DNA of 61,524 nucleotides from Nitrososphaerota archaeon (GTDB lineage: Archaea > Thermoproteota > Nitrososphaeria > Nitrososphaerales > Gagatemarchaeaceae), in assembly GCA_016200045.1 (NCBI GenBank), contig JACQFN010000001.1, positions 1 through 61,524 on the forward strand. Reading direction: 5' to 3'. A program made the translations under genes and the position numbers. The notes under the pieces are model-generated. The model was not told where the DNA came from. It ran no database searches and was given only the letters and a program-made list of their open reading frames with translations. Below, piece by piece: positions 43,280-47,282 of this stretch. Positions within the stretch are counted from its first letter, which is position 1. Each line of letters begins with the position of its first letter.

Positions 43280-44215
43280 TTGCAAGAAGATGTGAAGAAG
43301 CTAGTGATCATCGGCTCGGGACCCGCGGGCCTTACCGCCGCTATCTACGGCTCTAGGGCTGACCTGGACCCGGTCGTGTTCATGGGTACGAAGTATGGGG
43401 GCCAGCTCATGCTGACGAGCGACGTGGAGAACTTCCCCGGGTTCAGGGACCCGGTCATGGGCCCGGACCTGATCATGAACATGAAGTCTCAGGCGGAGAG
43501 GCTCGGCGCGAAGCTGATTCAGGAGGACGTCATCAGGGTGGACTTCGGGACCCACCCGTTCAGGGTCTACACCGACAGCGGGGTCACGCAGGCCCTTTCC
43601 GTGATAGTCGCGACCGGGGCAAACCCTAGGAGGCTGGACATTCCGTCAGAGGCCAGGCTGCAGGGAAAAGGGGTGTCGAACTGCGCGGTCTGCGATGGGT
43701 TCTTCTTCAGAGGAAAGAAGGTCGCGGTGGTCGGAGGGGGGGACACGGCTATGGAGGAGGCTACCTTCCTGACGAAGTTCGCGACCAGCGTTCAGGTCGT
43801 GCACAGGAGGGACGAGCTGAGGGCTTCCGCAGCGCTCCAGAAGGAGGCGTTCGGGAACCAGAAAATCAGTTTCCTGTGGGACTCGGTGGTCACAGAGGTA
43901 TTGGGGGACGGCCATGTGCAGGGGGCCAGGCTGAAGAACCTGAAGAGCGGACAGGAGACGGAGCTGCCGGTCGACGGCCTCTTCGTGGCGATCGGGTACG
44001 ACCCGAACACGGAGATATTCAAGGGCCAGCTGGAGCTCGACCAGAAGGGGTACATAGCGGTGAAGAACGAGACCGAAAGCAGCGTCCCAGGGGTCTTCGT
44101 CGCAGGAGACGTGCACGACTTCCGGTACAGGCAGGCGATAACGGCTGCCGCGGACGGGTGCAAGGCGCTGCTGGACGCGGAGAAGTTCGTAAAGACGAAG
44201 CTCGAAGTCCCCTAG
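43280..44215 (+). CDS. trxB: Thioredoxin reductase
   Basis: 311 residues, TTG start. FAD fold VIIGSGPAGLTAAIYGSRA, redox pair in CAVCDGFFFRG, NAD(P)H fold VAVVGGGDTAMEEA, and C-terminal FAD block VPGVFVAGDVHDFRYRQAITAAADG. It passes electrons from NAD(P)H (or another donor) to thioredoxin-like proteins such as the one at 271. HRRDELRAS after the nucleotide fold resembles the NADPH-binding HRR form. Convergent to the AmrS-like gene, overlapping its end by 4 bp. Confidence 0.94.
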   Translation: MQEDVKKLVIIGSGPAGLTAAIYGSRADLDPVVFMGTKYGGQLMLTSDVENFPGFRDPVMGPDLIMNMKSQAERLGAKLIQEDVIRVDFGTHPFRVYTDSGVTQALSVIVATGANPRRLDIPSEARLQGKGVSNCAVCDGFFFRGKKVAVVGGGDTAMEEATFLTKFATSVQVVHRRDELRASAALQKEAFGNQKISFLWDSVVTEVLGDGHVQGARLKNLKSGQETELPVDGLFVAIGYDPNTEIFKGQLELDQKGYIAVKNETESSVPGVFVAGDVHDFRYRQAITAAADGCKALLDAEKFVKTKLEVP

Positions 44216-44784
44216 TTTATCACGGAAATGAATCGGTCTTCGGACGACGATTTGCTCAGGGGCCCCGTTATCGGCGTGGCATAACCGCAGAATCTGCACC
44301 TGTTTCGGTCGTCCAGGTTGTACCCGCGGATCTCGTACCCGAACCTCTTGATGAGGACGTTGCCGCACTCCGGGCAGTATGTGCTCTCTGCAGGGTGGCC
44401 GGGGACGTTCCCGATGTAGACGTACCGCAGCCCCGCCTTCTTCCCGACCTCGAGGTGCTTTTCCAGGGTTTCGATCGGCGTCCAGGGGAAGTCCATCATC
44501 TTGTAGTCCGGGTGGAAGCGAAGGAAGTGTATCGGCATGTCCGGCCCCAGGTTGTCGTAGACCCACCTGCAGAGCTTTTCCGCGGCTTCTATCGAGTCCC
44601 CGACCCTGGGGATTATCAGGTCGGTTATCTCCGTGTGGACCCTTGTTTTCTGCTTGATTTCCAGGAGGCTCTGGAAGATTGGGTCTGCGTTCGGTATGCT
44701 GATGTAGCGTCTGACGAAACCGGTCTCGCCGCTTCCCTTGAAGTCGATTGTGGCGCAGTCGAGGAATCCGTCCATCATCTTCAC
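44212..44784 (-). CDS. C-terminal part of AmrS-like radical SAM protein, after an in-frame TAG
   Basis: 190 residues in the same frame as the upstream part, separated only by TAG-ACG before a GTG that could restart translation. Content continues the family sequence: LDCATIDFKGSGETGFVRRYISI, then HTEITDLIIPRVGDSIEAAEKLCRWVYDNLGPDMPIHFLRFHPDYKM. The typical zinc-binding end follows (CPECGNVLIKRFGYEI, then CRFCG). Alone it lacks the SAM cluster motif and most of the barrel start. Either readthrough, reinitiation giving a split enzyme, or a recent nonsense mutation must explain it. Confidence 0.75.
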   Translation of the reverse strand: MKMMDGFLDCATIDFKGSGETGFVRRYISIPNADPIFQSLLEIKQKTRVHTEITDLIIPRVGDSIEAAEKLCRWVYDNLGPDMPIHFLRFHPDYKMMDFPWTPIETLEKHLEVGKKAGLRYVYIGNVPGHPAESTYCPECGNVLIKRFGYEIRGYNLDDRNRCRFCGYATPITGPLSKSSSEDRFISVIN

Positions 44785-44787
44785 CGT

Positions 44788-46389
44788 CTAGGGGGTGTCG
44801 TAGCCGTTGGAGACGAAGATGTTGAAGAGCCCCTTCGACCTCGCTATCTTCCCGACGTCTCGCGCGTATTCCATGAAGATCGTCGGCTGGTTGTAGGTGT
44901 AGGCAATTCCCTCGCATCCGTAGGCCAGGGCGTTGCCGACTATGTCCTCGGGGGTCGCTTCAATCCCTTCGATCCTCCGGAGTTGGCTGATGTCGCTATT
45001 CTGGCAATATTGACAATTATGGACAAGAATTCCGTCTGCGACATAGTCGTGGTTGGTAATCGTCTCGATGCTGTAGACGGTCTCTTCCCGGTCCGTCGGC
45101 CGAGATGACTTGACATCCACCCAGAGTCTCATGTTGGCCATCCGGGGCCGGGAAAGACGTTCTATGACGAGCGCCTTCGACTCCTCAGGGTGGTTGTACA
45201 GGTAGGAGCCAGGAATTCTGAGAACTTCCCAGCCGTTGGCTCGCAGCGTCTCGTCTCTGACGCGATCGCTGTCCTGAACCTCAGGGCTGTGATAGTGCCA
45301 CCACCCGTCTACTTCGATGTCCAGCTTCTCTTCGACAAATGCTGCGTCCGCAATGTAGTACGACTTCGAATGTTCGAGCCGCTTCTCCACTCTGACTCTG
45401 TGTTCCTTCTCGTAAGGTAGTTCCAGCGAATCCAGCACTGGATAGAGTTTGAGTTGAGACTTCGATGGGTGATTGTGGTGCCAAGCCTGCATCCTCCCCA
45501 CGTTTCTGTGCCACCCGTGAGTGTCATCTTCGAGGAAGCGCCGCTCACTTGACTGGAGCGCACGTCGAGCTATCGCAGAGTCTTTCATCGGATTGTTGAT
45601 TTTCATCCGCTCCCGACTTCGGAAGAGCAACTCATCCGAATGTTTCATGCCCAGTATATAGCACCGTCCGCGGTGACGATTCCAATTATCGTAGCCTGTG
45701 AGTTTCTCACCGCACTTGTGGCACGCGAATACCCCAGTCCTCCGGTGCTCGGCGTGTTTCTCATTCCACCTTGCCGTCTGTGTCTGCCAAACTCGAAGAA
45801 TCTCGTCTCCTGCTCTCAGCTGTCTCACGGTCTTCCACCCTTTCTTTGTCATGACAGGGTGCTCTTCTGTCAGAAGAACTGGCTCTTGGCCGTTGTCGCC
45901 GTAGGATACTTCCCACAGGCGTCCCTTTAGGGCCTCCGCATGGGTTACGACGTTAGGCTCGATGCGCATCCCCTGATCGACGTTGTAAGACCAGAGCATG
46001 TCACCAGGAAGGAGACTTTCAACATCCTTTGTGGTTCCGTCTGAAAGCAGCACTTGCGACCCCCCCGGATGGCACGCCCATGAACATCCGCTCGTCGCGA
46101 CTGAGAAGATCTTGGACCCGGGCCGGTAGTGAACTACAGGTTTCTTCTCGATCGGGTCGATGTGGCCTGCCATTACCTTGCCGTAGACGAGGAGATAGAG
46201 CCTTCCTCCGACTACCCCCCTGACCCCGCAGAACCCGACCTGGCCCTCGCCGATCTGGCAGTTCCTCGCGCAGGCCGTGCATTGGACCCTTCCGGTCGGG
46301 AGGTTCCTGTAGAGCTCCGCAGGTCTCCCGCTCGCCTGAGTGAGTTTCCCTAGAGTCGCCATTTGGTGGTTGGACGGCTCGCCGGCCAT
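44788..46389 (-). CDS. AmrS-like radical SAM protein, N-terminal part, with intein
   Basis: From the ATG at 46389 ([12 protein letters not shown] 46362 is also possible), 533 residues, ending in a TAG within SNGYDTP. Family features: [21 protein letters not shown] near the start, then ATSGCSWA followed, after removal of the intein, by CQYCQN, giving the radical SAM motif CxxxCxx[17 protein letters not shown] and [10 protein letters not shown] follow. This is the AmmeMemoRadiSam/PflA-like family, which works with AMMECR1 and Memo proteins (neither is in the window). The intein splits the cluster motif. Full function needs both splicing and passage through the TAG. Confidence 0.85.
45016..46074 (-). 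mobile_element. Intein in the radical SAM motif with Vsr-like (EDxHD) nuclease and zinc finger
   Basis: 353 residues from Cys to Asn, with VADGILVHN then Cys +1. Block A is [13 protein letters not shown], block B TEEHP. The central part has no dodecapeptide motifs. In order (intein numbering) it has a CxxC-H-C zinc-finger-like segment (CHKC...HRGRC, 118-138), a NUMOD3-like stretch ([16 protein letters not shown], about 155-175), and a nuclease-like block (235-287) with [19 protein letters not shown] and QDSDRVRDE, then GWEVLRIPG. The E-x-D-xxx-H-...-D spacing fits the EDxHD/Vsr/DUF559 nuclease fold. All splice residues are present. Confidence 0.9.
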
Positions 46390-46484
46390 TAAGGATTTGC
46401 AGAGTTGAGAAGAGAGAGGCGTAGAGGTCGCGTCGCGTCCCAAACGCATATTACATATGTTATTTCGGGCAGGCCGAGTTCAGG

Positions 46485-47282
46485 TTGCCCGACCTCGTCG
46501 AGCTGCTCCTGCTCGGGGGAGTGGCAGGCTTCACCATCTACTTCGGCCTTCCGGTGGCCCTGCTCGGGGTCGGCGAGCGGCTGAAGGGTTTCCTGAACGC
46601 CCTCGCTGTGGGAATCCTCATCTTCCTGATAGTGGACGTCTTCAGCCACGCCTGGGAACTGACCACAGACGCGGCGACGCTGGCCTTCCTGGGGCTGGAA
46701 CCTGCCGGGGACGCCTACGTCTATCTGCTGATGATGTTCGGCGGCCTGACGCTGGGTCTCCTGGGCCTGCTCCTCTACGAACGACTGTACATGGGCAGGC
46801 GCCCTGAGGAACCGGGCCCCGAGAAGCTCTCGACGCTGATCGCCTTGGGGATTGGGGCGCACAACCTGAGCGAGGGGCTCGCGATAGGCCAGGCATATCT
46901 CGGAGGGCTGATTGGCCTGAACACTGGCCTGGCGGTGGTTTTGGTCGTGGGGTTTGCGGCGCACAACGCGACTGAGGGGTTCGGGATCGCAGCACCCCTG
47001 TCCGGGGCGGGACAGAAGCCTAGGGTCTCCTTCTTGGCTAAGGTGCTCTTCATCGGGGGGGCGCCGACCCTCGTCGGAACCCTGCTGGGGAGCATCCAGT
47101 TCTCCTCCGCTGCATACGTCCTCTTTCTTGCCCTGGCGGGAGGGGCGCTGGTCTATGTCACGATGCTGATGTTCAACACGGGGAGGCGGCAGTACGGGAA
47201 CGGGTTGATGATGCTGGGTATTTTCATCGGATTGTGCGCGGGATTTCTGACGGACCTCATCGTCACCCTCGGCGGGGTATGA
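46485..47282 (+). CDS. ZIP-family divalent metal transporter
   Basis: 265 residues, TTG start close to a TATA-like ACATATGTAATATG (46450s), so probably with almost no leader. Eight spans. Metal-site motifs in the two central helices: GIGAHNLSEGLAIG and GFAAHNATEGFGIA (HNxxEG). The variable loop between spans 3 and 4 is short (GRRPEEPGPEK) and lacks a histidine cluster. Probably imports zinc or iron/manganese. The 3' end overlaps the convergent PadR regulator by 20 bp, a possible regulatory pair. Confidence 0.9.
   Translation: MPDLVELLLLGGVAGFTIYFGLPVALLGVGERLKGFLNALAVGILIFLIVDVFSHAWELTTDAATLAFLGLEPAGDAYVYLLMMFGGLTLGLLGLLLYERLYMGRRPEEPGPEKLSTLIALGIGAHNLSEGLAIGQAYLGGLIGLNTGLAVVLVVGFAAHNATEGFGIAAPLSGAGQKPRVSFLAKVLFIGGAPTLVGTLLGSIQFSSAAYVLFLALAGGALVYVTMLMFNTGRRQYGNGLMMLGIFIGLCAGFLTDLIVTLGGV

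Follow-up and report, generated by a model that had tools for sequence, protein, structure and literature searches.

A putative mobile intein with a DUF559/Vsr-like nuclease domain in the [4Fe-4S] cluster motif of archaeal AmrS

The window, which is the whole stretch of 61,524 nucleotides from a Nitrososphaerota archaeon that was analyzed here, carries on its minus strand a gene for the radical SAM protein AmrS whose coding frame is split by an in-frame insert. The host frame is assigned to AmrS by TIGR04337, with values of 6.6e-41 and 6.6e-46 for the two parts that an in-frame TAG codon separates, and no second AmrS match was found in the window genome besides the two halves of the gene. The N-extein (46075..46449, minus strand), the start codon of which is not proven, ends with GCSWA, and the C-extein (44212..45015, minus strand), which contains the TAG, begins with CQYCQN, both halves being matched by TIGR04337. 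The neighbors of the gene in the window are a thioredoxin-reductase-like gene (43280-44215) and a ZIP-like transporter (46485-47282), and inspection by eye gives similar neighbors for some of the relatives (L064, L068). Here and below, G numbers denote the genomes compared (G000 being the window genome), L numbers denote loci, and f numbers denote families.

The insert (45016..46074, minus strand) is exact to the base and comprises 353 amino acids (CHPGGSQ...ILVHN), running from C1 to N353 and followed by the extein Cys+1, as delineated by Pfam, conservation, and empty-site comparison. An earlier sequence-only reading had placed an intein at these very positions and its site inside the CxxxCxxC motif of AmrS, and both assignments hold: Pfam Intein_splicing (PF14890) matches residues 10-353 above its cut-off (3.7e-11), and the insertion point lies exactly before the second Cys of the motif, between GCSWA and CQYCQN. 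The intein-free site that the reading had proposed to look for in relatives is likewise exact, the gap at the junction being 0 residues in empty AmrS genes vs 351-355 in full-length occupied ones and 353 in the window. Because the insert precedes the second Cys of CxxxCxxC, the unspliced protein would presumably be unable to form the cluster motif.

The N-terminal splicing (Hint) part, residues 1-98 (45781..46074, minus strand), contains C1 and T69-E-E-H72 and is defined by PF14890, conservation, and the structural model, and the C-terminal splicing part, residues 314-353 (45016..45135, minus strand), is defined by the end of PF14890 and by TIGR01443. Between them lies the homing-endonuclease region, residues 99-313 (45136..45780, minus strand), as delimited by alignments A2/A3 and the model. 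The features of class 1 inteins are present, i.e., C1, T69-xx-H72 (TEEH), H352-N353, and Cys+1, with T69, H72, H352, and N353 invariant in the first 15 members of the family. The Hint part has a beta-rich predicted fold, and its top PDB matches are intein structures. The Hint ends are thus those that the sequence-only reading had described, and its statement that LAGLIDADG motifs are lacking is borne out, no LAGLIDADG match being among the family matches of the intein and 19 members. Judged from its sequence, the insert is confirmed as a class-1-type intein, which its conserved residues predict to be capable of splicing.

The endonuclease region is built of three elements. The first is a CxxC-x12-H-x3-C motif, probably zinc-binding, at residues 116-139 (45658..45729, minus strand), where C118, C121, H134, and C138, which make up the CxxC-H-C noted in the sequence-only reading, are invariant, first in 15 and then in 19 homologues, with weak C2H2 matches only in Pfam. 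The second is a segment of predicted helices at residues 155-183 (45526..45612, minus strand), recognized by its conservation and by its likeness to an open reading frame of phage phi673. Its core, N161-P162-M163, is invariant in alignment A1 and nearly so in A3. The reading had called this stretch NUMOD3-like; the conserved core stands, but the resemblance is by eye and at the motif level only, since in 19 members no Pfam NUMOD family reaches E<=10. The third is the nuclease domain, residues 203-307 (45154..45468, minus strand), identified through PF04480, PF18741, and Foldseek, which includes the predicted active-site block D243...E254-x-D256-GWW-H260 (45295..45348, minus strand), located from invariant columns and from alignment to the structures 3r3p and 3hrl. 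In the first family alignment of 15 members, the invariant positions of these elements comprise, besides the zinc-motif residues and N161-P162-M163, also E224, D243, E254, D256, G257-W-W-H260, and D270. The block noted in the sequence-only reading is represented by E254, D256, and H260, with D243 and D270.

The DUF559 model (PF04480) matches the intein above its cut-off (3.1e-7, 30.7 bits vs 20.6), and REase_MTES_1575 (PF18741) matches at 5.5e-8, below its own cut-off. A DUF559 match to the nuclease segment is found in 19/19 members, the best at 6.5e-10. The model of the full intein has a pTM of 0.47, and a fold search with the whole intein returned mostly intein structures among the top 50; the nuclease was therefore folded alone with 19 homologues, giving a mean pLDDT of 84.8 and about 86-95 over the core. 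The top PDB matches of this model in Foldseek include PvuRts1I (4oq2), I-Bth0305I (3r3p; probability 1.00, TM by target length 0.66-0.69), NGO0050 (3hrl), and Vsr (1vsr; rank 10), as expected for a Vsr-like core. I-Bth0305I is also the best, though weak, match in a sequence-profile search against solved proteins (E 0.006). In the sequence alignments, however, the residues D, ExDG, H, and D are kept with NGO0050, while fewer are kept with I-Bth0305I, and the domain is therefore best filed under DUF559/MTES_1575, within the Vsr-like PD-(D/E)xK group that includes EDxHD. The profile and structure checks thus bear out the Vsr-like nuclease of the sequence-only reading as to group, while the EDxHD label gives way to a more suitable one.

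The in-frame TAG of the C-extein (44788..44790, minus strand), which is absent from the sequence-only reading, corresponds to a GAA or GAG codon in three close relatives. Since it lies in the C-extein, the spliced product would be truncated in the window genome, and AmrS looks broken, or misassembled, there. A read-through with pyrrolysine was considered and rejected, the best match to PylS in the window genome being 29.8 bits vs a cut-off of 178. A long-standing pseudogene was also rejected, dN/dS after the TAG being low (0.16 vs G003 and G005), and dN in this part is 0.157 and 0.171 vs 0.135 in a control pair. The low dN/dS, together with a dN near that of the control pair, indicates that the stop arose recently or stems from an error of assembly. 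Further stops were noted elsewhere: an AmrS homologue of a related genome (G093:C19:2377-3378) has one in-frame TAG; L026 (5001-6059) has an in-frame TAG inside the intein, near the zinc motif, where its near twin L027 reads through; and the G474 copy (L078) has one in-frame TAA in an intein-bearing AmrS gene. The stops in the L026 and L078 metagenome-assembled genomes are either polymorphism or assembly error.

The intein is not confined to the window genome. In a search of 151 relatives, the full intein was found in G005 of the same genus, the closest intein relative with 81% identity, and, at 41-58%, in G045, G066, G061, G037 (here truncated by the end of the contig), G058, G084, and G091. 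The GTDB collection gave nine intein loci, which overlap partly with the genomes of that search and are labelled Bathyarchaeota, Nitrososphaeraceae, Thaumarchaeota, and archaeon RBG_16_50_20, and the nuclease profile, searched against the whole phylum, brought in G388, G451, and G492, which belong to one family of the same order, as well as G212 and family f72 outside the order, the remaining matches being partial and mostly short proteins. Altogether, about twenty further members share the same AmrS codon junction, in Nitrososphaerales and in other archaea of the phylum, including Bathyarchaeota-labelled metagenome-assembled genomes, and in every member examined the host is AmrS and the junction the same. 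Among viral contigs, no relative with the intein was found, and none by the nuclease profile, and plasmids gave only partial DUF559 matches. Other inteins were seen in the relatives, with frames assigned by eye, in peptide release factor-like (L011, L019), MCM-like helicase (L012), and Mrp-like ATPase (L014) genes.

The site is exactly empty in AmrS of most relatives, and four states occur at this one codon. Empty is, e.g., G121, the sister of the occupied G388 (support 99 in the AmrS tree), and the intact state is represented by the window, G005, G388, G492, and G669. In G582 the nuclease is decaying, with D243 replaced by G, DGWWH by EEWRH, the zinc motif altered, and the NPM segment deleted, the splicing ends being intact, and in G036 the intein is reduced to 193 amino acids, retaining no more of the nuclease than a remnant of its tail. 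The four states require 20 changes on the AmrS tree. Such a coexistence of empty, occupied, decaying, and nuclease-free states appears as expected for a mobile selfish element.

The extein and intein trees were also compared. In the extein tree the window's family (G000, G005, G037, and G045) forms one group with support 95/99, but G045 leaves it in the intein tree and joins G084, a member of a different family (91/92). G058, G061, and G066 form a clade in the intein tree (100/99) that is rejected when tested with the extein data (AU p 0.006), and, conversely, testing with the intein data leads to rejection of G066+f10 and G058+G212, two groupings of the extein tree (AU p 0.004 and 0.0007, respectively), although these groups were picked after seeing the trees, which makes the p-values optimistic. 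The f1 inteins as one clade are weakly supported and not clearly rejected (AU p 0.07, and 0.52 without G045). Between G066 and G061 the identity is 74% for the intein vs 67% for the host protein, and between G000 and G037 it is 58% vs 77%. The conflict of the intein tree with the host-gene tree indicates that the intein moves horizontally.

On the basis of these results, we consider it highly probable that the insert is a full-length mobile intein that splices out, homes into empty AmrS genes by means of its DUF559/Vsr-like nuclease, spreads, and later loses the nuclease. The AmrS precursor would be translated with its [4Fe-4S] motif interrupted by the insert, and the Hint domain would then excise the insert and join GCSWA to CQYCQN via C1, T69-xx-H72, H352-N353, and Cys+1, in the standard Cys pathway suggested by the conserved residues. 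The freed intein would act as a homing endonuclease, whose CxxC-H-C and NPM segments may bind a long AmrS target and whose DUF559/Vsr-like domain may cut intein-free alleles at or near the cluster-motif codons. Repair of the break off the intein-bearing copy would carry the insert across, and the element would pass between archaeal lineages by transfer, the nuclease being lost later. AmrS would be a good target because its cysteine codons cannot change and because imprecise loss destroys the enzyme.

The decayed and deleted relatives (G582, G036), and also the stop codon in the window host gene, could be expected if the nuclease were already inactive and the intein persisted only since splicing must be kept. 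We regard this as unlikely, considering that all catalytic and zinc residues are intact in the window and that the dN/dS of the nuclease domain is 0.06 vs G005; in six pairs the values are 0.05-0.24 (some with dS >1), which indicates purifying selection. It is also conceivable, with a still smaller probability, that the intein has been retained as a switch by which AmrS responds to redox state or iron, where oxidation of the cluster cysteines that serve as splicing nucleophiles would block maturation. Such a role would be in line with the use of the second cluster cysteine as Cys+1, with the use of the third by another intein described below, and with the stress-responsive splicing of a mycobacterial DnaB intein reported in PMC6195587, but the sporadic presence in near relatives and the many empty sites are more what one would expect of a selfish element than of a fixed regulator. 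That the DUF559 domain serves anti-phage defense rather than homing, as weak NCBIfam matches to the large anti-phage proteins Hhe (0.0023) and ProA (0.032) might indicate, is very improbable, given that the intein in which the domain resides has one fixed site, that some members have lost the domain, and that its build is close to that of a phage intein-associated open reading frame. Finally, an assembly chimera or a contaminant joined to AmrS, which the draft status of the window genome (25 contigs) and the stop in the host gene could bring to mind, is hardly credible in view of the same in-frame junction in many independent genomes, including the single-contig G005 and G388, and of the closest intein relative being from the same genus.

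For the mobile intein favored here, a competitor may exist within the same motif. At the junction that precedes the third Cys in the CxxxCxxC motif of AmrS (site b; 45006..45007, minus strand), which is empty in the window and lies 9 bp downstream of the first site, ten relatives carry a LAGLIDADG-type intein of 399-468 amino acids (L060-L067, with L068 and L069 partial), eight complete and two cut by contig ends. LAGLIDADG_3 is matched in the one site-b intein that was scanned. This second intein type, 9 bp away in the same motif, is newly found here. Within one genus, G037 has the DUF559 intein at Cys2, G031 has the site-b intein at Cys3, and G039 is empty, the C-exteins of G037 and G031 being 94% identical in DNA. 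No AmrS gene with both inteins was seen, and no frame among the matches listed is long enough. With ten of each among about 120 AmrS-bearing genomes of the 151-genome set, however, about 0.8 doubles are expected by chance, so that the zero observed is not significant and mutual exclusion is to be taken as a conjecture. We thus propose tentatively, giving it a little less than even weight, that two inteins whose nucleases differ in fold, DUF559/Vsr-like at Cys2 and LAGLIDADG at Cys3, compete for one [4Fe-4S] motif of one archaeal enzyme family and destroy each other's target, and so exclude and replace one another between close relatives. Adjacent haloarchaeal MCM inteins are known to hinder homing of each other (PMC10643990).

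With all stages of the homing cycle at one codon and a second intein 9 bp off, competition between homing elements and the way in which inteins gain and lose nuclease domains become directly testable. Discussions of archaeal inteins usually treat them as carriers of LAGLIDADG nucleases. To these is added a widespread cellular family, in several lineages of one archaeal phylum, in which a single uninterrupted intein holds both a nuclease of the restriction/repair type and a zinc-binding motif. The intein proteins are, moreover, candidates for use as site-specific nucleases and as splicing domains. The sequence-only reading knew of no earlier description of an archaeal chromosomal case in an AmrS gene. 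The family extends beyond this one archaeon, and the literature searched yielded no account of a continuous intein from archaea with a DUF559/Vsr-like nuclease; intein and DUF559 occurred together there only in the mention, in an intein section, of a DUF559-containing gene of a hot-spring cyanobacterium.

Several known systems share individual features with the AmrS intein. The site-b inteins (G017, G027, G032, and others) reside in the same gene and motif but differ in position, length, nuclease, and the use of the third Cys as Cys+1. The Rv2578c-type inteins (NF038136) are also inserted in a radical SAM protein, and the model aligns to both ends of the present intein, but the match is far below the model cut-off (45.5 vs 700 bits); nothing was found in the literature searched on Rv2578c and an intein. 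Split inteins with a Vsr-like nuclease were reportedly described by Dassa in 2009 ("fractured genes") from phage-like metagenomic genes. An association of Vsr-like/EDxHD homing endonucleases with split inteins is also stated, citing Dassa 2009, in PMC12350094. Those systems likewise combine an intein with an EDxHD/Vsr-like nuclease, but they are split, whereas the AmrS intein forms a single continuous chain within a cellular enzyme of archaea. Corynebacterium phage phi673 (MG324353) has a 212-residue open reading frame with CxxC, NPMKDP, and DUF559 inside a helicase intein, which aligned over most of the nuclease profile (E 4.5e-15). In this case (L116, MG324353.1: 1337-3847 and 1971-2609), the homing endonuclease frame is nested out of frame with the intein, and the host protein and site are unrelated; the helicase of the sister phage phi674 is without intein (PMC6132909). 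The predicted nuclease fold is shared with I-Bth0305I (PDB 3R3P), which is also the best sequence match among solved proteins. It belongs to the EDxHD homing endonucleases, a family that is mostly described as phage-derived and in which the nuclease is tethered to further DNA-binding segments (PMC3943268), as is also predicted for the AmrS intein. I-Bth0305I is, however, intron-encoded (the chain is named "Mobile intron protein"), whereas the AmrS nuclease shares the reading frame of an intein in an archaeal chromosome, is preceded by a CxxC-H-C motif, keeps ExDGWWH, and is closer to DUF559/NGO0050.
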